Shown in pieces: positions 2,771 through 32,920 of a stretch of DNA of 33,470 nt. A program made the translations under genes and the position numbers. The notes below the pieces were generated by a model, which did not search any database, was not told where the DNA came from, and saw nothing but the letters and a program-made list of their open reading frames with translations. Position 1 is the first letter of the stretch. Each line of letters begins with the position of its first letter. This stretch comes from a virus. The DNA lies in the IMG/VR virus record IMGVR_UViG_3300024999_000267, positions 1-33,470 of that record; one strand, given 5' to 3'.

Positions 2771-3547
2771 GTGGTTATTTTGAAGTTAGATGTCGTTTGT
2801 ACTAAATGTGGGGCAAATATTAAAAGGTATAAGACTAAGGGTGGTATGCATTTTTGCAACATGGATTGCAAGGCTTCGTGGCAACGCGACCAAAAACCAG
2901 TTAATAAGGAGTGGTTATATCAGAAATACATCGTTGAGGGCCTTAGTTCATATGAGATTGCAGAGATTGTTAAACGTGATCCAAAGCGCGTTTATGAATG
3001 GTTAGTGAATGAAGGTATAGAAACTAGAAAAAGAGGAACAGGGTGGGAGAAAAGGGAAGGATTTAATTGGCATCTAAGGGGTGAAGACCCACCCTTTAAG
3101 GGAAAGCATCACACCGAGGAATTCAAGGAAAACAAACGCATACTTAGGCTTAAAGATGGCCATGTTCCCTACTTAAAGAACGGTAAACATTGGTTGAAAT
3201 ATCCAGGGGCTAAGCCGGCAAGTTGGCGGGGAGGAATTTCTCCCGACAGACAGGCTGAATACTCAAGCCAAGAATGGAAAGACGCGGTAAAGGCTGTATG
3301 GAAAAGGGCTAATGCGATATGCGAACTTTGTGGCAAGGATCATAGACTTGTGGATAAAAACGAAGAAAAATTTAACATCCATCATATGTATCCGTTCGTT
3401 AGTTATAAGTTTTTACGCAAAAATCCAGATAATCTTGTTTTACTATGCAAAAAGTGCCACCTATTTATTCACAGTAAGAAAAATGTTGATAAAAAATTTA
3501 TACTGAAGGAGATGATTTTACCATCATGGTTAATATCTCAGAAATAA
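2771..3547 (+). CDS. HNH homing-type endonuclease with zinc ribbon, HTH and NUMOD3-like segment
   Basis: Domains in order over 258 residues: a zinc ribbon (CTKCG and CNMDC, residues 10-36), a helix-turn-helix (SSYEIAEIVKRDPKRVYEW, about 60-80), a NUMOD3-like stretch (FKGKHHTEEF, about 110-120), and a C-terminal HNH fold with CELCG, the HH pair in FNIHHMY, and NLVLLCKKCH. Free-standing phage HNH enzymes of this type nick or cut specific sites and spread themselves. It sits between the helicase and the methyltransferase and overlaps the latter's start by 22 bases. It has its own promoter and a divergent RHH gene. The start is GTG at 2771 or TTG at 2780. Confidence 0.85.
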   Translation: MVILKLDVVCTKCGANIKRYKTKGGMHFCNMDCKASWQRDQKPVNKEWLYQKYIVEGLSSYEIAEIVKRDPKRVYEWLVNEGIETRKRGTGWEKREGFNWHLRGEDPPFKGKHHTEEFKENKRILRLKDGHVPYLKNGKHWLKYPGAKPASWRGGISPDRQAEYSSQEWKDAVKAVWKRANAICELCGKDHRLVDKNEEKFNIHHMYPFVSYKFLRKNPDNLVLLCKKCHLFIHSKKNVDKKFILKEMILPSWLISQK

Positions 3548-4789: not shown

Positions 4790-5566
4790 ATGGTAACAAA
4801 AAGAAAAGCTATCCCGAAGAAAATGAGATTCGAGGTATTTAAGCGTGATAGTTTTAAATGCCAATATTGTGGCAAGTCGGCACCAGAAGTAATTCTTCAC
4901 GCCGATCATATTAACCCAGTATACGAAGGTGGAAGGAATACGCTTACGAACCTAATCACATCTTGCGAAGCATGTAATTTAGGTAAAGGTAAAAGAAAAT
5001 TAAGCGACAATACTGCAGTTGAAAAACAAAAGGCTCAATTAGACGAGTTAAACGAGCGGAGAATACAGCTTGAAATGATGATGAAGTGGCGCGAGGGATT
5101 AAACGAAATCGAGGACACAAAATTAAAGTATGTTCGGGAAAAATGGGAGAGTCATGCTAAGCCGTTTACAATTACCGAAAATGGAGTTAAAAACTTAAAG
5201 TCTATCGTTGGTAAATTCCCATTAGAAGTGGTGCTTGATTCTATCGAAGCGTCGTGTGGTCAATATCTCAGAACTGATAATAAAGGCAAGGTGACTATTG
5301 AATCAGTTCAAAAATCTTTTGATTACATTGGAAAAATTTGTGCAAATAAGAAACGTGAACAAGAAAGACCATACCTTAGGGATCTATATTATGTGAGAGG
5401 AATTCTTAAAAATAGGTTTAGTCAGATAGATATGTGGGAGGCTCTCGATCTTCTTGAGGATGCTTATAATAACGGAATTAGTTTAGGCAGGTTAAAAGAA
5501 GTAGTGAGAAGCGTTAGATATTGGGGAGAATTTAAGGATGAGATTAGATATCTTATTAGAGGGTGA
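4790..5566 (+). CDS. HNH endonuclease with long alpha-helical C-terminal region
   Basis: Residues 1-70 form a clean HNH nuclease: RDSFKCQYCGKSAP, ADHINPVYEGG, NLITSCEACNLGKG. Residues 80-258 are helical and charged, with no motif I recognise. The gene overlaps the region just before the replication initiator, whose true TTG start comes 4 bases after its stop. It has its own promoter opposite RHH2. The HNH domain is of the McrA-like type rather than the NUMOD-bearing type of the genes at 2771 and 24045, so its job could be in replication or packaging rather than homing. Confidence 0.85.
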   Translation: MVTKRKAIPKKMRFEVFKRDSFKCQYCGKSAPEVILHADHINPVYEGGRNTLTNLITSCEACNLGKGKRKLSDNTAVEKQKAQLDELNERRIQLEMMMKWREGLNEIEDTKLKYVREKWESHAKPFTITENGVKNLKSIVGKFPLEVVLDSIEASCGQYLRTDNKGKVTIESVQKSFDYIGKICANKKREQERPYLRDLYYVRGILKNRFSQIDMWEALDLLEDAYNNGISLGRLKEVVRSVRYWGEFKDEIRYLIRG

Positions 5567-7824: not shown

Positions 7825-8016
7825 TTAATTTTTCAAAATGTCATTAGGGGTGCAGTTTAATGCTTTGCAAATTCTATCAAGTGTACTAAATTGGATTCCC
7901 TTGGTGTTTCCATTAACTAAATCATATCCCGCCTTGTGGCTAATGTGGGCTTCTTTAATTAACCAATATACCGATTTATCGTGCTGTTCCAAATATTCCT
8001 TAAGTGTGCATCTCAT
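7825..8016 (-). CDS. XRE-family Cro/CI-like repressor
   Basis: The 63-residue protein is almost entirely an XRE HTH domain (KSVYWLIKEAHISHKAGYDL, STLDRICKALNCTPNDIL), the size of Cro-type repressors. A GAGGAGG-type site precedes the ATG at 8016. It diverges from the tnpB gene across overlapping promoters at 8049-8092. It could be the phage's own early repressor or a regulator belonging to the TnpB cassette; the adjacency favours control of tnpB and of itself, as inference. I see no clear hairpin terminator after its stop. Confidence 0.85.
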   Translation of the reverse strand: MRCTLKEYLEQHDKSVYWLIKEAHISHKAGYDLVNGNTKGIQFSTLDRICKALNCTPNDILKN

Positions 8017-8048
8017 ATAATCTCCTCCTCCAAACTTATTATAGAAGT

Positions 8049-8092
8049 ATTATACTATAGGTATTGTATAGTAGCAATAAGTGTAGTATACT
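8049..8092. promoter_or_regulatory. Overlapping divergent promoters, XRE / tnpB
   Basis: Minus strand: TTGCTA (plus 8072-8077), 17 bp, TATAAT (plus 8049-8054). Plus strand: TTGTAT (8064-8069), 17 bp, TATACT (8087-8092). Repeated TATAGT/ACTATA motifs, including the palindrome TAGTATACTA over the plus -10, are candidate repressor half-sites. The two promoters interpenetrate, so polymerase binding is probably mutually exclusive. Confidence 0.7.
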
Positions 8093-8115
8093 ATCACTAT
8101 AAGGAGGTGAGGGAT

Positions 8116-9258
8116 ATGAGGTCATACAAAATTGAAATTAAACCGACCCAAGAACAAATTAGTAAGATTAATCAAACCATAGGTGTATGTAGGTATCTTT
8201 ATAATTTGTATCTTGCCACCAATCAAGAAAAATACGACCAAGGATTACCATTTATTTCAGGAATGGACTTCGATAAGTGGATTAACAATGTTCACTCGAA
8301 AGTTGCTGGTTTTGAATGGATCAAGGATGTATCCAGTAAGGCCCGCAAAAAATCAATCATGAATGGAGAGGCGGCATATAAGAAGTTCTTCAAAAAGTTG
8401 AGTAGATTTCCCAAATTTAAGAAAAAGCGTAATCAAGATGTGACGATTTACTTTCCAAAAAACAACGATACTGCTTGGACGGTAGAACGTCACAGAATCA
8501 AGATTCCTACATTGGGATGGATGCGATTAAAAGAGTTTGGATATCTTCCAAGTAACGCTCAAATCAAGAGTGGAACGGTATCATTTAAGGCTGGGCGGTA
8601 TTACGTCAGTGTGTTAGTGGATAAACAATCTATCTCCACTAACGAAGTGACGTATTCACAAGGTGTAGGTATTGACTTGGGGGTTAAGGACTTAGCGATT
8701 GTTAGCAATGGTCAAGTATTTAAAAACATTAACAAAACAGGCAAGGTTAAAAAACTCAAGAAGCTATTGAAGCACGCTCAACGGCAATTAAGCCGTAAAT
8801 ATGAAATGCGGAAGCGGAATGGAGGTACTGCTGCTAATATAAACAAACAATGCTTGAGGGTACAGAAGCTTTATCAAAGAATAACTAATATTCGCTACGA
8901 TCACATCAATAAGGTTATTGCGGAACAGGTGAAAAACAAACCATCGTATATAACCATTGAGGATCTGAATATTAGGGGAATGATGAAGAATCGACATTTA
9001 TCAAGGGCGATTGGAGAACAATGTCTTTCGATGCTTGTAGATAAGTTGATAACCAAGGCTAAGTATTACGGCATTGAGCTACGACAGGCTGATAGGTTTT
9101 TTCCTAGTTCAAAAACCTGTTCGTGTTGTGGAAATATTAAGTCTGATTTGAAACTGAAAGATAGAACATATAATTGCACTTCTTGCGGATTATCTATTGA
9201 TAGAGATGTTAATGCCGCAATTAACTTGAGAGATGTTAAAAAATACAAGATTGCTTAA
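8116..9258 (+). CDS. tnpB: TnpB RNA-guided endonuclease
   Basis: The ATG at 8116 follows AAGGAGGTGAGGG; the frame is open further upstream but that part covers the promoters. The 380-residue protein has the OrfB helix-turn-helix start (EIKPTQEQISKINQTIGVCR) and the split RuvC domain with all three acidic residues: D187 in GIDLGVKD, E282 in IEDLNIRGM, D364 in SIDRDVNAA. A zinc finger lies at C335, C338, C354 and C357. TnpB proteins cut DNA guided by an RNA made from the element's right end. The intact catalytic set argues for an active nuclease rather than a dead TldR-like regulator. Confidence 0.93.
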   Translation: MRSYKIEIKPTQEQISKINQTIGVCRYLYNLYLATNQEKYDQGLPFISGMDFDKWINNVHSKVAGFEWIKDVSSKARKKSIMNGEAAYKKFFKKLSRFPKFKKKRNQDVTIYFPKNNDTAWTVERHRIKIPTLGWMRLKEFGYLPSNAQIKSGTVSFKAGRYYVSVLVDKQSISTNEVTYSQGVGIDLGVKDLAIVSNGQVFKNINKTGKVKKLKKLLKHAQRQLSRKYEMRKRNGGTAANINKQCLRVQKLYQRITNIRYDHINKVIAEQVKNKPSYITIEDLNIRGMMKNRHLSRAIGEQCLSMLVDKLITKAKYYGIELRQADRFFPSSKTCSCCGNIKSDLKLKDRTYNCTSCGLSIDRDVNAAINLRDVKKYKIA

Positions 9259-9408
9259 TTCTCAAGCAACTCGTATATGTACCGATGGCTAGTCGGGAGT
9301 TTATGCCTGCGGAGTGTTAAATCAAACTGCAGTAGGATTCGTCCGGGGCAGGATGCAATGAAACAGGAAAAATCTTGGCATGGGCGTTTGTCTATGTTTT
9401 AAGTAGCA
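9223..9408 (+). ncRNA. Candidate omega-RNA (reRNA) of TnpB
   Basis: The region overlapping the tnpB 3' end and continuing about 150 bases is non-coding but structured. TTGAGA near 9225 can pair with TCTCAA spanning the end of tnpB. There is a CCGA/TCGG hairpin near 9282-9295 and a CCTGC/GCAG pairing near 9307-9333. A final 7-bp G-U-containing hairpin (CATGGGC with GTCTATG) lies near 9380-9396. This position and layout match TnpB guide RNA scaffolds, with the guide expected just past the right end. Boundaries are approximate and the fold is by eye. Confidence 0.6.
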
Positions 9409-11711: not shown

Positions 11712-11900
11712 TTGAAAAATACAAAAACAAACAGACTAAAAACCCTCTATCCCACACTTGCTGATTTGGAAAAGGAAATAGAAAAGTTTGGCAACGCATC
11801 AAAACTTGCTTATCATTTGGGCATGAGTCGGACAACTATCACGGATTATAGGTTGACGTTGGGTGGCAATGGTACTATCAGGAGTGCAGGCGGTACGTGA
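11712..11900 (+). CDS. Small HTH protein (TTG start)
   Basis: The TTG at 11712 follows AAAGGAGGG. The 62-residue product contains a helix-turn-helix (GNASKLAYHLGMSRTTITDY). This resembles small phage regulators that select targets by a Fis/RinA-like HTH. Its stop overlaps the GTG of the next mini-gene. Confidence 0.6.
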   Translation: MKNTKTNRLKTLYPTLADLEKEIEKFGNASKLAYHLGMSRTTITDYRLTLGGNGTIRSAGGT

Positions 11901-12001
11901 AGGATTGCGAGCTGGATGAGAATATTCGGAAGGTAGTTGATGGCGCAGGGGTAGTTGGGGTTGGAGAAGTTCATCAGTGGATGGGGAAAGTGAAGATATG
12001 A
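11897..12001 (+). CDS. 34-residue ORF of unknown function
   Basis: GTG at 11897 overlaps the upstream stop and its TGA overlaps the ATG of the DUF1064 gene, a fully coupled arrangement. The product (MKDCELDENIRKVVDGAGVV...) has no recognisable motif. Coding status rests on overlap architecture only. Confidence 0.4.
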   Translation: MKDCELDENIRKVVDGAGVVGVGEVHQWMGKVKI

Positions 12002-18773: not shown

Positions 18774-19604
18774 TTAATACTCTGCTTTGATTCCTCTGAT
18801 GTGGTCGGCTGCTTTCTGCGCTTGACTTGCTGCGAATACTACGAGCTTGGGATCTCCCTTTAATGCTCTGAGCCAAGATGAGACGTAAGATGCTGAGTTT
18901 TCAAAGGTTGTTTGGTCAATTCCTGCGACTGTGCAAAGCATCGCGGCTCCAATCTCTGCTACTAATTCCTCTTTGCTGTATGTTTCACTTCCGAAAGCTG
19001 CAATAGCGGTGATCCCGGTCCGGTTCAATCTTGACTTGTGGCCTGTGCTGTGGACCATCTCGTGAAACATGGTAGAGTAGAATTCCTCGGGGTTGTTGTA
19101 GTCGTTGATTTCTGGTACACTTATTGAGTCGGCGGAAGGCATATAGAAGGCTTTACCTGGCGCGTAGCTTATCGGAGGGCAATTCCGGTAGGCTTCTTTT
19201 ATTTGCTCTGCTGTTTCGATTGGGCTGTGTTCGTTAATGGGTGCGTCCTTGCGCTTGCTCTTTAGTCCTTCGCATTGGGTGTTGATCTCGAAAACTGTGA
19301 AGTAGCGCAGGAAGGGAATTTTCTTACTTGCGTCTTCTTCATTCTCGAACATTTTCCAGAAAACAACCATTTGGCCTTTAGCGCCTTTTTTTACTTTTCC
19401 GCCAGCTTCCTTAATTTTATTGAAGGTTGCATATTCGCCGGGTTCGAGTAGCATTGCATTGATGCCGCGATATTCTTTTTGAGTTTCCCAAGCTACTGCT
19501 CCGCATGAGTTCCAAGGTTTACGCCAAGGGATGACGCCTGATTCAAGTTTTTTGATGATGCGCTCAGTTACCAGTTCGTAGACGCTTTGTTTAGTTGCTG
19601 CCAT
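18774..19604 (-). CDS. ArdC-like antirestriction / zincin metallopeptidase protein
   Basis: The 276-residue protein has the ArdC two-domain plan. An N-terminal ssDNA-binding domain runs to about residue 120 (VYELVTERIIKKLESGVIPW, PWNSCGAVAWETQKEYRGIN, GAKGQMVVFWK). A C-terminal zincin peptidase has HEMVHSTGH (HExxH, about residue 180) and GSETYSKEELVAEIGAAMLC supplying further ligand residues. ArdC of plasmid pSa protects incoming single-stranded DNA from host enzymes and restriction. Here it probably helps the phage early after infection; that role is inferred. Confidence 0.9.
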   Translation of the reverse strand: MAATKQSVYELVTERIIKKLESGVIPWRKPWNSCGAVAWETQKEYRGINAMLLEPGEYATFNKIKEAGGKVKKGAKGQMVVFWKMFENEEDASKKIPFLRYFTVFEINTQCEGLKSKRKDAPINEHSPIETAEQIKEAYRNCPPISYAPGKAFYMPSADSISVPEINDYNNPEEFYSTMFHEMVHSTGHKSRLNRTGITAIAAFGSETYSKEELVAEIGAAMLCTVAGIDQTTFENSASYVSSWLRALKGDPKLVVFAASQAQKAADHIRGIKAEY

Positions 19605-20552: not shown

Positions 20553-21062
20553 ATGATAGCAGAGAGAGTGAAGCATGCAGGAGGTAGGCCTCTGAAGTTT
20601 CAATCAATAAAGGAAATGCAGAGTAAGATAGATGCTTATTTTGATTCATGCTTTGAAATTGATGCTGATACAGGGAAGAAGGTACAGATAGAACCTTTTA
20701 CTATTACTGGATTGGCATTAGACCTCGATACTAGCCGGGAAACATTGATGGAAATAGAGACACAAAGGAGTAATTATGATATTCAGTTTGTTGACGCAAT
20801 CAAACGCGCGAAGCTGAAGTGCCACAATTACGCCGAAAAAGAGCTATACAGAGCCAAGTCTCCCACTGGTGCTATCTTCGCCCTCAAGAACTACGGCTGG
20901 AAGGATGTCCAAACAATAGAGCAAACTGGCCCCAACGGTGGCCCTCTACAAATCCAGAGCATCGCTGCTCTCTCCGACGCTGATCTCAAGCTCATGATAG
21001 AGATCATGGAGCGATCACAAATTCAGGGTGAGGTAGTCGATATCGAGTCATCGGAGGACTGA
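20553..21062 (+). CDS. terS: Terminase small subunit (DNA-packaging gp3-like)
   Basis: The 169-residue protein begins with a GGRPLKFQSIKEMQSKIDAY block. An HTH follows (FTITGLALDLDTSRETLMEI), then AIKRAKLKCHNYAEKELYR and the signature GAIFALKNYGWKDVQ. This is the terminase small-subunit family that recognises the packaging site and loads the large subunit. The ATG at 20553 follows AAGGAGG. Unusually, the large subunit is over 2 kb away, with a RepL-like gene and mini-genes between. Confidence 0.9.
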   Translation: MIAERVKHAGGRPLKFQSIKEMQSKIDAYFDSCFEIDADTGKKVQIEPFTITGLALDLDTSRETLMEIETQRSNYDIQFVDAIKRAKLKCHNYAEKELYRAKSPTGAIFALKNYGWKDVQTIEQTGPNGGPLQIQSIAALSDADLKLMIEIMERSQIQGEVVDIESSED

Positions 21063-23142: not shown

Positions 23143-24045
23143 ATGGAAGCTAAAAAACCGAGTACCACAAAAGCCGTGCCAAATAAGAAGTCAATCGTAG
23201 AGGAAAAAATCCAAATTAATAATGACCCTACTGAAAAACCAAAGATAAAAGCAAGCGACCTGCCCTCGTTGGCGGCAATGCAGCAAGAGTTAGCCAAAAG
23301 AAACGATTCCGACTGGCTAAAATACTATGTTAAGATTGTAAACAAGAATGGTGCCCAGGTTCCGTTCGTTCTAAACAGTATCCAAGTGCAAATAGAGGAT
23401 AAAATAAAGGAATTAGAATCGCAAGGCATCCCTGCTAGGATAATTGTATTAAAAGCGAGACAGGAGGGAATTTCCACATATTCCCAAGCGAAGTTTCTTT
23501 GCCGAACAATTAAAAACAAAAACCGCAATGCACTTGTAGTAGCTCATCGAGACGATAGCACCAATGCGATTTTCGATAAAGCGAAATACTCTAATTCGTG
23601 TTTGCCTGACCACATTAAACCGCTACAACAAGCCTCAAACGCAAGAGAGTTAATATTCAACAAGCCACCATATTACAAAGGAAAACAGGAGGGTTTAAAT
23701 TCCAAGATAAAGGTACAGACGGCTGGTAGCGATGGGATTGGCAGGTCGGATACATACCACTACGTCCATCTTTCGGAGTTCGCGTTTTACTCAGGAGATC
23801 CACTTAAAACCCTTAATGGAATACTAAACTCTGTTCCGAGTATCGTTGGCACTATCGTAATTATAGAAAGCACAGCTTCGGGAATGAATTCATTCAAAGA
23901 CCTGTGGGACAAGGCGGTAGCTGGAGAAAACGCATTTATACCTATGTTTTTCTCATGGTTTGATTACAAAGACTACGCCATGGCGATGACTGAAACAGAA
24001 GAAGAAGCATGGAGAGTATTCACGGAAAACAAAGGTGGTGACTGA
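23143..24045 (+). CDS. terL: Terminase large subunit, ATPase fragment
   Basis: The 300-residue product contains the packaging ATPase: Walker A variant KARQEGIST at 104-112, Walker B with catalytic glutamate VHLSE at 208-212, and the coupling motif ESTASG at 242-247. It ends FTENKGGD and stops at a TGA shared with the ATG of the HNH gene. The natural continuation of the linker (LPEALQVLNLNDYEKNL) resumes at 24796 in the same frame. It is transcribed from the promoter at 23092-23120. The fragment could work with the downstream pieces as a multi-part motor; this is inferred. Confidence 0.9.
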   Translation: MEAKKPSTTKAVPNKKSIVEEKIQINNDPTEKPKIKASDLPSLAAMQQELAKRNDSDWLKYYVKIVNKNGAQVPFVLNSIQVQIEDKIKELESQGIPARIIVLKARQEGISTYSQAKFLCRTIKNKNRNALVVAHRDDSTNAIFDKAKYSNSCLPDHIKPLQQASNARELIFNKPPYYKGKQEGLNSKIKVQTAGSDGIGRSDTYHYVHLSEFAFYSGDPLKTLNGILNSVPSIVGTIVIIESTASGMNSFKDLWDKAVAGENAFIPMFFSWFDYKDYAMAMTETEEEAWRVFTENKGGD

Positions 24046-24827
24046 TGGGTATGCCACCTAGAATAGTGATAGAGGAATCTGAGCTAAGGAGATTATATAT
24101 TGATGAAAATAAAACCATAGCCGAGATAGGCATTATATTGTCAGTGTCTAAGGGGACAATATACCTCAGGCTTAGAGGATTTGGGATAGATACCAATAGC
24201 GCAAAGAAAGCATTGAGCAGGTACAGCGCGCTTGTGACAATTCAGTGCTGTGAATGTGGAAATGATATACAGAGGATTAGGTCAAGGGCAATAAGGACCG
24301 ACCCTGTATGTGGACCAGAATGCTACGCTAAATCAAAAAGCAGAATTAATAAAGGAGAACTTAATCCATTCTATGGGCATCATTTTAGTAAAGAGCAATC
24401 CAAGACGTTGTCTAAGTCGTTAAAAACATATGTAGACGGCAGAAGAGGTAAGAAACTTTCCGTAGAATGGAAATTAAACATTTCCAAGGGAAGACTGTTG
24501 GGTCTTGGAAGAACTGAACCAAAGTTTGTAACAGAGAGAACTTGTAATGAATACAAGATATTTACAAAGGCAGTGTTCATGAGGGATAACTATACCTGCA
24601 ACAAATGTGGCACGCGTAGCGGATACCTTAATGTGCATCATTTAAAGAACTACTCTAGTTACCCGTCACTTAGATTCATACCTATAAACGGAGTAGTTCT
24701 TTGCAGGAAGTGCCATAAAGAATTTCACGCAATATATAAGAGAAAAGACAACACGGTTCGCCAATATCTAGAATTTATAAAAGCAGGTGATGAGTATGAA
24801 TCTACCAGAAGCGTTACAAGTTCTTAA
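24045..24827 (+). CDS. HNH homing endonuclease inserted in the terminase gene
   Basis: Domains over 260 residues: an HTH (KTIAEIGIILSVSKGTIYLR, about 22-45), a zinc ribbon (CCECG, then CGPEC, about 66-95), a NUMOD3-like segment (GELNPFYGHHFSKEQ, about 106-120), and HNH (CNKCGTRSGYLNVHHLKNYS, VVLCRKCHKEFH, about 185-235). The domains match those of the HNH at 2771, but the ribbon and HTH are in swapped order. It overlaps the ATPase fragment by one base and ends inside the downstream fragment, leaving no room for a separate intron ribozyme. GGTGA sequences precede both its own start and the resumed terminase start. Confidence 0.88.
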   Translation: MGMPPRIVIEESELRRLYIDENKTIAEIGIILSVSKGTIYLRLRGFGIDTNSAKKALSRYSALVTIQCCECGNDIQRIRSRAIRTDPVCGPECYAKSKSRINKGELNPFYGHHFSKEQSKTLSKSLKTYVDGRRGKKLSVEWKLNISKGRLLGLGRTEPKFVTERTCNEYKIFTKAVFMRDNYTCNKCGTRSGYLNVHHLKNYSSYPSLRFIPINGVVLCRKCHKEFHAIYKRKDNTVRQYLEFIKAGDEYESTRSVTSS

Positions 24828-24957
24828 TCTTAATGACTATGAAAAGAACTTAATAAACCTGTATGGAGTTAATTTTAATCAGATCAAATGGTACAGGTGG
24901 AAGTTGAAGAACGACTGTGGTGGGGACGTTGATCTCATGCACCAGGAGAATCCCTAG
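24796..24957 (+). CDS. Terminase large subunit, linker fragment (ends at CCC-TAG)
   Basis: ATG at 24796, preceded by AGGTGAT inside the HNH gene, encodes 53 residues: MNLPEALQVLNLNDYEKNLI, then a QIKWYRWKLKNDCGGDVDL block, then MHQENP. These are standard linker sequences of this terminase type. The TAG at 24955-24957 stops translation just before the conserved SFASEAFLSTGRPVF, which lies in the +1 frame. It needs recoding to join to the nuclease domain. Confidence 0.75.
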   Translation: MNLPEALQVLNLNDYEKNLINLYGVNFNQIKWYRWKLKNDCGGDVDLMHQENP

Positions 24958-25831
24958 CTTCGCCAGTGAAGCGTTCCTTTCTACTGGTAGGCCCGTCTTT
25001 AACTCCAACCAAATTTTCATGCAAATAGAACGCCTTAAAAAACAATACAAAACATCCCCACCAAAACGGGGGTGTTTTCTCTTTGAGTGGAATGACCCCG
25101 AAACAAAAGATAAGATAATAGATAGCTCAATTAAGTTCGTTCAGGGAGTCGGCGACTACATCTATATTTACGATGAACCTAAGCTTGGGCATCCTTTCGT
25201 CTTGGGAGGGGATACAGCTGGTTCTGGCGATGCTGATAGATTTACAGGAACAATGATTAACAACAATACGGGAAAGCGTGTAGCAACTCTATACGGAAAG
25301 GTTGACCCTGATACCTACACGCACCAAATGTATTGCCTAGGCAGGTACTATAACAACGCTCTTATTTCCATAGAAATAAATTTTAATATCTACAGCGTGA
25401 AGGAATTAGAGCGCCTCAATTACCCTAAGCAATATAGACGTGAAGTTATCGACGAAGTTGGTCATAAAAAGCAATACAAAAATGGATTCAGAACTGACTC
25501 TAATACGCGGCCCTATATGATCTCGCTCGAAATCGCGTTAATCCGTGACAACATCGACCTCTTCACACACATCGGTATGCTCCAGGAATGTCTCACTTTC
25601 GTTATGGATAAAAACGGTAGACCGGACGCAGAAAGTGGAAAGCATGATGACATACTTTTCAGTGATATGGTGGCAAACGTGTCAAGATCCCAACAGCGCT
25701 TCACAATCGAACGCAACGCCAAATTCGAACTCCCCGCCAACATGAGCGAAGAAGAAAAGTCGAGGGTCAAGGCTAATATTGATTTTGAAGATAAGTATGT
25801 CGAGATGGCTAAATATCGGAGGAAGAAGTGA
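24917..25831 (+). CDS. Terminase large subunit, nuclease fragment
   Basis: The open frame begins at GTG 24917, but the first 13 residues are out-of-frame readings of the linker and no ribosome site is present. Meaningful sequence starts at about 24956 with SFASEAFLSTGRPVF. The RNase H-like headful nuclease follows: GGDTAGSGDADRF with the first aspartate, ISIEINF with a glutamate, and GKHDDILFSDMV with the final acidic pair. It cuts the packaged concatemer. Translation probably depends on the +1 shift upstream. About 295 functional residues remain. Confidence 0.85.
   Translation: MVGTLISCTRRIPSFASEAFLSTGRPVFNSNQIFMQIERLKKQYKTSPPKRGCFLFEWNDPETKDKIIDSSIKFVQGVGDYIYIYDEPKLGHPFVLGGDTAGSGDADRFTGTMINNNTGKRVATLYGKVDPDTYTHQMYCLGRYYNNALISIEINFNIYSVKELERLNYPKQYRREVIDEVGHKKQYKNGFRTDSNTRPYMISLEIALIRDNIDLFTHIGMLQECLTFVMDKNGRPDAESGKHDDILFSDMVANVSRSQQRFTIERNAKFELPANMSEEEKSRVKANIDFEDKYVEMAKYRRKK
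24952..24958 (+). other. Candidate programmed +1 frameshift site CCC-TAG-C
   Basis: The last sense codon CCC is followed by TAG. A Pro-tRNA moving from CCC to CCT (+1) leads directly into AGC TTC, giving NPSF, the continuation expected for the terminase. CCC followed by a slow stop codon is the type of site reported for +1 shifting in Listeria phage PSA. A single inserted base from mutation or sequencing error would look the same. Confidence 0.55.
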
Positions 25832-25895: not shown

Positions 25896-28118
25896 ATGTC
25901 ACTACTAACCAAAGCAAAAAAGGTGGCTGGTAAAATCATGGGCAAAAAAGAAATGGTTCAAAATGCTGAACAAGAAGAAGCCGACCGCGAACTCATAGAA
26001 AAATGGCAACCAGTATTCGAGGCTGATAAGAGGGCTAAGAAGCCATGGGATGCAAGGTTCGATGAGTGGGAAGCAATCTATGATGCTGGCCGGGACTTCC
26101 AGAATGTCGAGGATGAATTTAGTAATTCCAACCGGACCATGAGGACTAATATCAACTTTCCTCGAATGATCGTAGAAAGTTTGATCGAATTAAAAGTTCC
26201 GGACCCCGATTTCCAAGCTATATCCAAGGATGATGAGGAATCGATTGAAAAGCTCAAACAATACGTCATGTATGTTGTTCGTTCTGCCCAGCCTTCATTA
26301 GAAGAAATCAACCTCCACAATGAACGCAGGGTTATGAAGTTCGGCGGGGCCTTTCATAAAATCCACTGGAATAACAGCGTCAAAAAGGCTGGCTATGTCG
26401 GAGAAATAGAAATCTCTATGCCGCACCCTAAAGACATCATCCCTAACCACGGCGCAACATCAATCGATGATATGGAGCATTACCATCATCCTAACAACCG
26501 CACAGCGAACTACATTACCCGTAAATGGCAGGACATTACAAAAGAAATGCTTGAGCAAAAAGCGCAGCTATTCCACGAATACGACGAAATGTCCGGCTCA
26601 CAGAGAATTAATGTAGGCGACTCTGAATCTGGCGATCAGGAAATGGGCTTAGAGAAGTACACCATCATTGAAACATCATACAAGGATGAAGATGGCGACA
26701 TATGTAAGTTCTGGTGGTCTGGTGACTTAGTGATTAAACACATACCTAAGTTTTATCATCGTCGGGATGAAGATGGCACTTCCATAAAAGCAAGCCATGA
26801 ATATGAAGGCAAGGAAGCCGACTACTACATCCCTAAGTCATGGGACCTCATTTATCAACCATTTATCCCAAGGGACAAGTCCTTTTGGGGAATCTCCATC
26901 ATGGAAGATATTCACGACATCAACGAGGCAATCAAGAAGGCGGTTTATCAACACGAAGAGGAACATTTAAAGGGAAATATTCAGCTTTTAGTTGGAAGTC
27001 AAGAGTTAAAAATAGCATTGGAGTCTTCAATTTCAAAGGTTCATTATGTGCAAGATCCTAACCAAAACGTCAAAGAGATCAACATGAGGGGCAATGTTGA
27101 CGGAGTAGCCTGGATTAATCAACTCAAAGAATGGATGCAATTACTGACCGGGGCAACAAATTCAGCTCTTGGTGTGCGAGATCAAGGCGTAACGTCTGGT
27201 AAGCAAGCACAAGTGTATGTTGAGCAAGCAAACTTCAAGGTAGCCCTTAAATCGGCTTATAAGGCATCGGCGTACAAGAGGATATACAGAACTATTGCAG
27301 ATTTTGCATTAGCCTTTGTAGACGAAGAGAGGCCGTTCAGGATTAAAGGTGAACCACCTGCGCCACCTATGCCATCAGCTCCAGGTACACCAGCTATGCC
27401 GGGGCAAGCCCCTGTACCTCCTACCGCGGACCCCAACGCTACTAAACCAAAAGCTCAGTATGGCAAGTTTGACAGATTGGCAATGCTCAAGGATCAATCA
27501 GGAAACTACATTTATCCTGATTTTGATATCGAGATTAGTGCTGAATCTGGTTTTATGAAGTCGAGAGTTGAGATATTCAACACCTTGAGCAACTTGGCAG
27601 GACAAGGACGGTTTGAACCAAACCCCGGCAATCTAACATTCTTGAAGTTGCTTAATAAGTTGGGTGTTCCCGATCTTCAGGCTGTCATTGATGAGATGGG
27701 CGAGATTATTAAGCAATCTCAACAGGCTCCACCTAAGCAGGAAATACCAAAGCCTCCCACCGAGTCGATACCGTTTAAGGATTTGCCGCCATCGGGACAA
27801 ATACAAATGGCTGCTAAGGCAGGGATACAGCTTACTGTCGAGGATATACAGCAAATGCAAGCTATGATGCAAGCGCAGAACCAAGGAAAGCAACCACAGG
27901 TCACACAATCGCCTGAGAGCAGTAAGCAACCACAGGGCAAGCCGAAACTATCACCTGAGATAATGAAGGCGTTAGAGAAGCTTCCTGAACCTGTGGCGAG
28001 GTTGTTAATGCAGATGGAACCTGATAAGTTGATGGTGTTGCTGGATAATCCGAATGAGTTAATGGCAGTTGTTGAGCAGATTATGGCGCAAGAACAAGGA
28101 GGTGGACAGGGTGCTTAA
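25896..28118 (+). CDS. Phage portal protein
   Basis: The 740-residue protein follows the terminase and has the features of a large portal of the podovirus-like type. An N-terminal helical part (DRELIEKWQPVFEADKRAKK) is followed by a membrane- or ring-forming core (FGGAFHKIHWNNSVKKAGYV, PHPKDIIPNHGATSIDDMEH, YQPFIPRDKSFWGISIMED). The crown region TNSALGVRDQGVTSGKQAQV is typical of portals. The last 250 residues are proline- and glutamine-rich with low complexity. The dodecameric portal forms the DNA channel and binds the terminase. GAGGTG precedes the ATG. Confidence 0.88.
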   Translation: MSLLTKAKKVAGKIMGKKEMVQNAEQEEADRELIEKWQPVFEADKRAKKPWDARFDEWEAIYDAGRDFQNVEDEFSNSNRTMRTNINFPRMIVESLIELKVPDPDFQAISKDDEESIEKLKQYVMYVVRSAQPSLEEINLHNERRVMKFGGAFHKIHWNNSVKKAGYVGEIEISMPHPKDIIPNHGATSIDDMEHYHHPNNRTANYITRKWQDITKEMLEQKAQLFHEYDEMSGSQRINVGDSESGDQEMGLEKYTIIETSYKDEDGDICKFWWSGDLVIKHIPKFYHRRDEDGTSIKASHEYEGKEADYYIPKSWDLIYQPFIPRDKSFWGISIMEDIHDINEAIKKAVYQHEEEHLKGNIQLLVGSQELKIALESSISKVHYVQDPNQNVKEINMRGNVDGVAWINQLKEWMQLLTGATNSALGVRDQGVTSGKQAQVYVEQANFKVALKSAYKASAYKRIYRTIADFALAFVDEERPFRIKGEPPAPPMPSAPGTPAMPGQAPVPPTADPNATKPKAQYGKFDRLAMLKDQSGNYIYPDFDIEISAESGFMKSRVEIFNTLSNLAGQGRFEPNPGNLTFLKLLNKLGVPDLQAVIDEMGEIIKQSQQAPPKQEIPKPPTESIPFKDLPPSGQIQMAAKAGIQLTVEDIQQMQAMMQAQNQGKQPQVTQSPESSKQPQGKPKLSPEIMKALEKLPEPVARLLMQMEPDKLMVLLDNPNELMAVVEQIMAQEQGGGQGA

Positions 28119-31318: not shown

Positions 31319-32920
31319 ATGATTAAAAATTGTCCAGTATGTAGTAAGGAATTCAATGCACTTGGTCCAACTGTGAACTGTTCTCCGGAATGTACAAAGC
31401 AAGCCAAGAGGATTAGAAATGGCCACTTTAACACAAGAGAACATTTCTGCCCTAACTGCAAGGAGAAGTTCGAACCAGTTAACGGCAAACAAGTATTCTG
31501 CTCCGAGGAATGTTGGCGCGATGCAAACAGCGAGAGATTGAAAGCCCGATCCAATCGAGGCGCTATGCGTCATCACGACAAAAAGATGTTTGGCGGAAAC
31601 CGGGAGATTGTTCTCCTCAGAGATGGGCATAAATGTACCAAATGTGGTTCTACTAACAAAGTCGGGGTGTACCACAAGGAACAGCCGCGCGATGGAGAAG
31701 ATGTAGACCATAGTCTTGATAACCTAATTGCTCTTTGTGGAACTTGTTATTTTGAGGAATATGTAAAACGCGAGTCAGTTGCATTCTTCTCTACAGCGTG
31801 TCAGCAATGCGGTAAGGAATTCAAAACTACATTGTATCGGCAATCTATTGGTTCAGGAAAGTATTGTTCGAAAGAATGCTCGGATGCTGGTCATGTAAAA
31901 CTTAAAGACTCGGATGAGCTAACTAAAGCCAGTAGGCCGAATTGGTTCAAGGTTGTTTGCTCAAATTGCGGTATCGAATTTGAGGTTCCACCCCATCGCA
32001 TTGCAAGCGGAAAGGCATTATATTGTAGTCGTTCCTGCAGAACCATAGTCGAGAACCGCAAGCGAGCGAAACCAAAACCGGAAAAACCCGTAAAACTAAT
32101 TGCAAAAGAGGGGTATAAATTCTGCATAAAGTGCGGTGACGAATTACTAGCAACGGAAGAATTCTTCCATAAACGTGTTGATAATGGAGTCGCTAAATTA
32201 AAAAGCACTTGCAAGAAATGTACCTCATTGCAAGGGATTGGTAATTACGCCACTAATCGGGATGCGATAAGGGAACGGCAAAAGAAGAGTCATGACAAAA
32301 ACAAGGATGAATCGAACGCTCGTAGTCGCGAAAGATACCAAAACGGCGGCAAAGAAAAGAAGTCGGCATACTACGTAGAAAACAAGGATGTCATAAATGA
32401 AAAGGCAACAAAGCGCAGGGAGGCTAACCGCGAGAACATTCGAGTTATTGCTAGGGAATACAGCAAACGACCCGAAGTAATGAAGCGTAAGGCTGAACAG
32501 CGAAAAGCGAATCCTGAAAAATATCGTAATCGGTATAACCTTTATTATCGCGGAGAGGGCAAAGAGCGCATAATCGCCATTGGCAAGCGTAGGGACGCGA
32601 AGAAGAAAAATGCAGTCGCGACTCTAACTCCTGAGCAGTGGCTTGATACCCTCGAATCTTTCGGAAACTGTTGTGTATATTGTGGCGATAAACTAACCAA
32701 TGTTCAACAGGACCATGTGATTCCGGTATCTTCCGGTGGTGGTTATACTAAGAAAAATATGCTCCCTGCTTGCAAATCTTGTAATTCTAGTAAGCATAAC
32801 CATTCATTAGAAGAGTGGTATCCAAAACAGCCATCGTTCTCCCCCGAACGCCTAACAAAAATCCACTCATGGATCGGCTTCGACTCAAAATCAAACACCC
32901 AACAACTAGCACTCTACTAA
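31319..32920 (+). CDS. Large multi-zinc-ribbon HNH endonuclease
   Basis: This 533-residue protein is about twice the normal size. It has five CxxC...C ribbons: C5/C8/C21/C25, C44/C47/C61/C65, C161/C164/C183/C187, C214/C217/C236/C240, and C269/C272/C298/C301. A first HNH-like fold (residues 85-150, CTKCG, VYHKEQ, ALCGTCYF) has lost its last histidine. A long basic linker (305-440) is followed by an intact C-terminal HNH (CVYCG, QQDHVIPVSSGGG, KKNMLPACKSCN). It sits between capsid genes with its own promoter and terminator, so it is an autonomous, probably mobile nuclease. Confidence 0.85.
   Translation: MIKNCPVCSKEFNALGPTVNCSPECTKQAKRIRNGHFNTREHFCPNCKEKFEPVNGKQVFCSEECWRDANSERLKARSNRGAMRHHDKKMFGGNREIVLLRDGHKCTKCGSTNKVGVYHKEQPRDGEDVDHSLDNLIALCGTCYFEEYVKRESVAFFSTACQQCGKEFKTTLYRQSIGSGKYCSKECSDAGHVKLKDSDELTKASRPNWFKVVCSNCGIEFEVPPHRIASGKALYCSRSCRTIVENRKRAKPKPEKPVKLIAKEGYKFCIKCGDELLATEEFFHKRVDNGVAKLKSTCKKCTSLQGIGNYATNRDAIRERQKKSHDKNKDESNARSRERYQNGGKEKKSAYYVENKDVINEKATKRREANRENIRVIAREYSKRPEVMKRKAEQRKANPEKYRNRYNLYYRGEGKERIIAIGKRRDAKKKNAVATLTPEQWLDTLESFGNCCVYCGDKLTNVQQDHVIPVSSGGGYTKKNMLPACKSCNSSKHNHSLEEWYPKQPSFSPERLTKIHSWIGFDSKSNTQQLALY

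Follow-up and report, generated by a model that had tools for sequence, protein, structure and literature searches.

A Phage Large Terminase Gene Split between Its ATPase and Nuclease Domains by an HNH Endonuclease Gene

In the phage sequence that we have analysed, the gene for the large terminase subunit (terL) is split by an HNH endonuclease gene, which lies between the regions coding for the ATPase and the nuclease domain of the packaging enzyme. The sequence is the IMG/VR virus record IMGVR_UViG_3300024999_000267, the whole stretch of which, 33,470 bases, is called the window hereafter. Two further phage lineages have a split at the same hinge, and the interruption is therefore not a one-off wreck. 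From comparative sequence evidence, the window and these two lineages probably have a TerL in pieces that has been made by free-standing homing endonucleases and the polypeptides of which remain separate, similarly to the case of nrdA and mobE in phage Aeh1. In the window phage, the nuclease half additionally lies behind a putative site of +1 frameshifting.

The Split terL Locus

The packaging module of the window comprises, in this order and on the plus strand, the small terminase (20553–21062; Pfam GP3_package, 1.1e-17; PHROG terminase small subunit, 1.7e-19), the N-terminal piece of the large subunit (TerL-N, 23143–24045), the HNH gene (24045–24827), the C-terminal piece (TerL-C) and the portal protein (25896–28118; PHROG portal, 3e-14). 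TerL-N is an ORF of 300 aa (PHROG terminase, E 3.8e-14) which is about 81% identical to the N-terminal parts of intact TerLs and contains all three of the motifs that the preliminary description of this DNA had ascribed to it, namely LKARQEGIST (Walker A-like), HYVHLSEFAF (Walker B with the catalytic glutamate) and the coupling motif IIESTASG; it then ends in a new C-terminal tail, TETEEEAWRVFTENKGGD. In a profile built from intact relatives, the ATPase part matches T4 gp17 (117–344) and the C-terminal part matches the nuclease of RB49 gp17. Profile and fold searches thus recover the features of large terminases of the T4 gp17 type, ATPase motifs together with an RNase H-type nuclease bearing its acidic residues.

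The HNH gene is in a different frame from TerL-N and, as already described, overlaps both of its flanks: its ATG overlaps the TerL-N stop in the sequence TGATG, while its 3′ end and the resumed terminase have 32 nt in common. Its product of 260 aa, with NUMOD3-like and HNH motifs (PHROG HNH families, to 3.6e-18), is a candidate free-standing homing endonuclease. Terminase coding resumes at ATG 24796, which we confirm to be in frame with TerL-N, and the first ORF of TerL-C (24796–24957) encodes 53 aa formed by a new head, MNLPEALQVLNLNDYEK, plus linker helices. The similar AAAG..GGTGA sequences that had been noticed before the HNH and TerL-C starts correspond to Shine-Dalgarno (SD) sites, one (AAAGGTGGTGA, 24031–24041) lying inside the end of terL-N and the other (AGGTGA, 24785–24790) inside the HNH gene. 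The duplexes with the anti-SD sequence have energies of −11.3 kcal/mol for the TerL-N start, −13.1 for the HNH start and −12.3 for the start at 24796, and all three rank within the best 5% of the 1196 ATG and GTG sites of the window (cut at −10.0 kcal/mol). Following the suggestion that another intact terminase might be present, we found no second TerL in the window, nor in the 59.9-kb contig of one of the other split lineages (L181), these contigs being fragments of incomplete genomes.

Three additional HNH genes are present in the window at 2771–3547, 4790–5566 and 31319–32920, the last coding for 533 aa and following the gpT-like major head gene, and this phage is therefore rich in HNH elements. 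Among its other genes are a TnpB-like gene of the IS605 OrfB/Cas12f1-like kind (7981–9258) and, on the minus strand, one for an ArdC-like protein (18774–19604), an anti-restriction type gene that combines an ArdC N-terminal domain with a zincin-like metallopeptidase. A RAGATH-18 RNA scoring above the gathering threshold lies at 9306–9369, 48 nt downstream of the TnpB-like gene, and possibly constitutes the guide-RNA end of that element.

Split and Intact Relatives

The two TerL pieces, profiles of intact TerLs, the HNH protein and the TerL-C head served as queries against viral contigs; together with one scan of prokaryote genomes, these searches retrieved approximately 100 TerL loci, about 75 of them distinct; the matches in prokaryote genomes were nearly all from Firmicutes. 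At the split point the approximately 75 distinct TerLs, including those of contigs L131 and L135, L004 and L026, are single open frames, the exceptions being three split lineages, and hence this gene in pieces has uninterrupted homologues in close relatives. Alignment with the intact relatives, which had been proposed for defining the insertion point, places it in the linker between ATPase and nuclease domains.

The first split lineage consists of the window with L002 and L003, the second of L011 (continued by L028 through an exact 48-nt overlap of contig ends) and the third of L179, L180 and L181; they stem from a handful of metagenomes, possibly from a shared site. All three are split at the same hinge. 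In L011 and L181 the pieces are open frames with their own start signals and an unshifted nuclease ORF, whereas the nuclease part of the window follows CCC TAG in the +1 frame. The C piece of L011 runs continuously from GTG 5489, and that of L181 from ATG 4810 for 340 aa, with GGAGGTG upstream; the predicted fold of the latter is that of a TerL nuclease, G20c, T4 gp17 and RB49 being among the best PDB matches. A different sort of damage was seen in the TerL of L136 (2411–4262), in which approximately 45 nt are missing and the frame is shifted just after the Walker A region, an unrelated N-terminal break due to either misassembly or a defective copy.

The genes lying between the pieces are of two kinds. 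The HNH proteins of L011 and the window share 39% identity and have their HNH residues conserved, while the L181 protein (163 aa, HNH_3) comes from an unrelated family. All three lineages therefore have a homing-type endonuclease gene between the terminase pieces, outside any intron or intein.

Introns and Inteins

A self-splicing intron removing the HNH region from the mRNA would restore a continuous TerL, and terL genes with HNH-bearing introns are known in other phages, including that of ICP1, the splicing of which was recognised only by RNA-seq (PMC11878797, PMC5618024, PMC10448857). Searches with Rfam found no intron in the window, L011 or L181, the region 23700–25200 of the window giving no match even at E 5, and a ribozyme core of group I or II is thus absent from these results. 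The sequence outside the ORF would also be too small for such a core: the replaced tract beyond the HNH ORF amounts to only about 84 nt in the window and up to about 170 nt in L181, most of it coding for tail and head, as against 350 ± 108 non-coding bases for the group I introns of Bastillevirinae (PMC11878797). Moreover, the three inserts carry two unrelated HNH families, and tail and head, which come with SD sites, show the conservation of coding sequence, all of which makes an intron very improbable.

Joining of the pieces after translation by a split intein would constitute another type of fractured gene, and homing endonucleases located between the halves of split-intein genes are on record (Dassa et al. 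2009, as cited in PMC10448857; polB of MIJ3, PMC6892783). Here the added tail and head measure only about 10–20 aa, too short for intein halves, and no intein family matched either of the TerL pieces; we consider the chances of this arrangement close to negligible.

Shared New Ends and the Probable Transfer of a Cassette

The new ends of the terminase pieces are common to the three split lineages and absent from intact TerLs: the TerL-N tail contains EAW-V-(Y/F), and the TerL-C head has the pattern M-(N/D)-(I/L)-x-EA-x-x-(V/I)L-x-L-x-(D/E)YEK. Among the split lineages the heads are 71–77% identical and have aligned start codons; their pN/pS is 0.17–0.25, synonymous sites being saturated or nearly so. 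The cores have had a different history from these ends: in the tree of the C-terminal core, a single clade of the three split TerLs was rejected (AU test, p 1.7e-5), and L181 grouped with the intact L131, to which it is 97% identical.

How did L181 obtain its split? Its N core has 100% protein identity with the intact L131 and L135 over 212 columns (91% and 90%, respectively, at the DNA level). Against L131, the 91% DNA identity extends up to position 4231 of L181 and resumes at 83% from position 4894 (79% against L135), leaving 662 bp with sharp edges in place of a 106-bp linker. This pattern is the trace that one would predict for the transfer of a cassette made of tail, HNH gene and head, accompanied by co-conversion. 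Phage homing endonucleases have been documented to co-convert their flanks (PMC2988022), and cases are recorded in which one homing endonuclease gene took the place of another at a fixed site (PMC10448857). To judge from these sequences, the arrival of the HNH gene would be the replacement of a linker by a cassette with co-conversion and not a simple insertion. The values of pN/pS between L181 and L131, 0.05–0.06 in both the N and the C piece, indicate that neither half is decaying, provided that the split on the L181 branch is old enough for decay to show.

In the model of the intact L131 protein, the replaced residues (approximately 260–295) form the helices that lie between ATPase and nuclease, a placement of moderate confidence which locates the insertion in the hinge of the two domains. 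The structure models, derived from shallow alignments, have a mean pLDDT of 70–71, and their confidence in the new head is too low for a contact between the tails to be proposed.

The same comparisons bear upon the possibility that the HNH protein is not a homing element but a part of the packaging machine, like the HNH proteins adjoining the terminases of HK97-like phages; that of HK97 works with the terminase in cos cleavage, according to a statement in PMC10448857. Such a role appears improbable for the protein of the window, given that close intact relatives are devoid of an HNH gene at the split point, that the L181 gene is drawn from an unrelated family, that the HNH gene diverges faster than terL (pN/pS 0.52 vs. 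0.24) and that its flanks bear the marks of cassette transfer.

The Break in the Nuclease Frame

The terminase of the window contains a second break. The frame opened by ATG 24796 stops after 53 codons at TAG 24955–24957, because one extra T follows CCC and leaves the nuclease half in the +1 frame: L011 reads AAT CCC AGC where the window reads AAT CCC T AGC, and all relatives are continuous through QENP-S or its equivalent at this position. The second ORF of TerL-C (24956–25831; PHROG terminase, 5e-14) remains open for 291 codons from AGC; its catalytic residues are all present, and it shows no other lesion. Hence the nuclease motifs do lie after 24956, as the preliminary description had it, but not in the resumed frame; and its statement that each piece can be translated holds for the HNH gene and the start at 24796, both with strong SD sites, but fails for the nuclease half, which is out of frame beyond the 53rd codon.

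Insertion and extra T are identical in two further assemblies, one matching over 7115 nt with 0 mismatches and the other over 5576 nt with 2 SNPs, neither of which lies in terL, and an error confined to the assembly of one contig is therefore unlikely, even if the samples are perhaps not independent.

The sequence around the break, AGGAG-AAT-CCC-TAG-C (24944–24958), presents in order an SD-like AGGAG, a spacer of 3 nt, the pyrimidine slippery codon CCC, the stop TAG and a following C. This is the layout of prfB, the gene for RF2, in which an SD-like element lies 3 nt upstream and a weak stop is followed by C (PMC12421855); a spacing of 3 nt is given for +1 shifts in PMC5009743. The slippery CTTT and the RF2 stop (TGA or TAA) of prfB are replaced in the window by CCCT and TAG. 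Closer in the slippery codon are CCC_UAA in gene 17.1 of SPP1 and CCC_UGA in the Listeria phage gene tsh, both of which are +1 frameshift sites (PMC6316719, PMC5009743). The putative site of the window differs from these and from prfB in that its stop is UAG, read by RF1, its gene is terL and its presence is limited to one lineage.

The exact pattern would be expected 0.02 times in the window. Across 13 intact TerLs, CCC or CTT followed by AA, AG or GA occurs at 74 of 8053 codons, and the SD-like element is in place in 1 of these cases; a random insertion would thus seldom fall on such a site. No relative keeps the site, which belongs only to the genotype of the window (three assemblies), L011, L181 and the intact TerLs all being in frame. 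An 18-base scan of viral contigs for CCC TAG at QENP hit 16 contigs, this TerL appearing among them only in the window genotype.

Other routes to the nuclease frame were considered and rejected. An internal restart would find no useful SD at GTG 24917 (−4.8) or ATG 25019 (+0.6). If TAG were recoded as Gln, the frame would still run into a TGA a few codons later; moreover, TAG is the stop of many other genes in the window. A bypass by the ribosome from one GGTGA repeat to the other is at odds with the nature of these repeats, which are SD sites and do not recur as a pair in L011 and L181, and with the landing frame, which would be that of the HNH gene.

It remains to weigh whether the terL of the window is simply broken, its extra T having arisen through an inactivating mutation or an error of the consensus and the genome being defective or dependent on a helper, while the split works in L011 and L181. 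The T is indeed confined to the lineage of the window, and L136 illustrates that a frame-broken terL can occur in such contigs. A second gene of the window, a small one at 11712–11998 coding for about 90 aa and intact in L244, likewise has an indel, a 1-bp deletion near 11891–11893 with no recognised slippery site. Against a broken gene stand the recurrence of the T in three assemblies, one of which differs by 2 SNPs at other positions, the long and complete nuclease frame beyond the break, the position of the break on a near-ideal +1 site and the open frames of the small terminase, portal and head genes. We regard a broken terL as unlikely, if distinctly less so than the alternatives discussed above, and are inclined, without great assurance, to favour productive +1 frameshifting at CCC_UAG_C in the window phage.

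Proposed Origin and Function of a Divided Terminase

The Aeh1-like reading advanced in the preliminary description emerges as the best supported, with homologous new termini in three diverged lineages, SD starts, intact motifs, no fitting intron or intein and no second TerL in the window or the L181 contig. It had taken into account neither the need for a +1 frameshift nor the replacement of the linker, and we propose the following extension.

The terL-N, HNH and terL-C genes would form a coupled operon in which each start has its own SD site. The HNH endonuclease would cut the intact terL linkers of co-infecting phages, and repair would copy the cassette of tail, HNH gene and head over about 65–106 bp of native linker. 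The cassette would bring stop and start signals together with the new tail and head, and the recipient would then make ATPase and nuclease polypeptides apart. Over time the HNH gene could be exchanged for unrelated ones while the split persists. The N and C polypeptides would meet through their natural domain interface, perhaps with the help of the added helices, and give a working motor on the portal. In the window phage, tRNA-Pro would slip +1 at CCC_UAG_C, moving from CCC to CCU with the aid of the AGGAG that precedes it by three bases, and so complete the nuclease, which would be a minority product in this lineage unless the lineage is defective.

That such a motor should work is surprising in the light of T4, where the hinge must be intact, separated ATPase and nuclease domains remaining active but no longer translocating DNA (PMC9958956), unless tails or ring avidity substitute for the hinge. 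Taken as a whole, a motor with separate ATPase and nuclease, the latter made only by ribosomes that slip +1 at CCC_UAG and thus dosed by translation (and RF1), with a split carried between phages and re-invaded by HNH elements, is a tentative picture to which we give somewhat less than an even chance of being correct in all its parts.

Models of translocation assume that the hinge between ATPase and nuclease transmits movement, and a natural TerL split at this hinge in three lineages offers a direct test of whether the covalent link is needed. It also presents a case in which the cassette of a homing element would alter how an essential machine is built and move the change sideways. If the CCC_UAG site is used, the dose of terminase nuclease would be set by recoding.

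Comparison with Known Systems

The closest parallel is nrdA of Aeh1, in which a free-standing HNH gene, mobE, interrupts an essential enzyme gene to give two polypeptides and the enzyme is described as fully functional (PMC2988022). The present case differs in concerning a packaging ATPase/nuclease, in the recurrence of the split in three diverged lineages, the HNH genes of which belong to two families, and in the putative +1 site of the window copy. Essential genes have been split by homing-endonuclease insertions also in Aeromonas phage 25, of which the gene 43A and 43B products co-purify, and in T4 (genes 39 and 60, mobA) (PMC2988022); in contrast to our case, these are genes for DNA polymerase or topoisomerase, the elements are GIY-YIG or other mob genes, and no cassette crossing lineages is described there. 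With regard to terL itself, homing-endonuclease elements are known in the intron-bearing genes of SIOphi and fRuSau02 and in the spliced gene of ICP1 (PMC11878797, PMC5618024, PMC10448857), but splicing restores a continuous TerL in those phages, whereas the present insert is too small to hold an intron and each piece is delimited by start and stop signals of its own. Our survey of the open literature found no terL gene that a free-standing homing endonuclease gene has divided so as to encode separate polypeptides. The kind of phenomenon is thus already known, from nrdA of Aeh1, gene 43 of phage 25 and gene 60 of T4, as are intron-bearing terL genes; what is new is the gene, the position at the hinge, the occurrence in three lineages that have new ends in common but HNH genes of two families, and the putative frameshift site.
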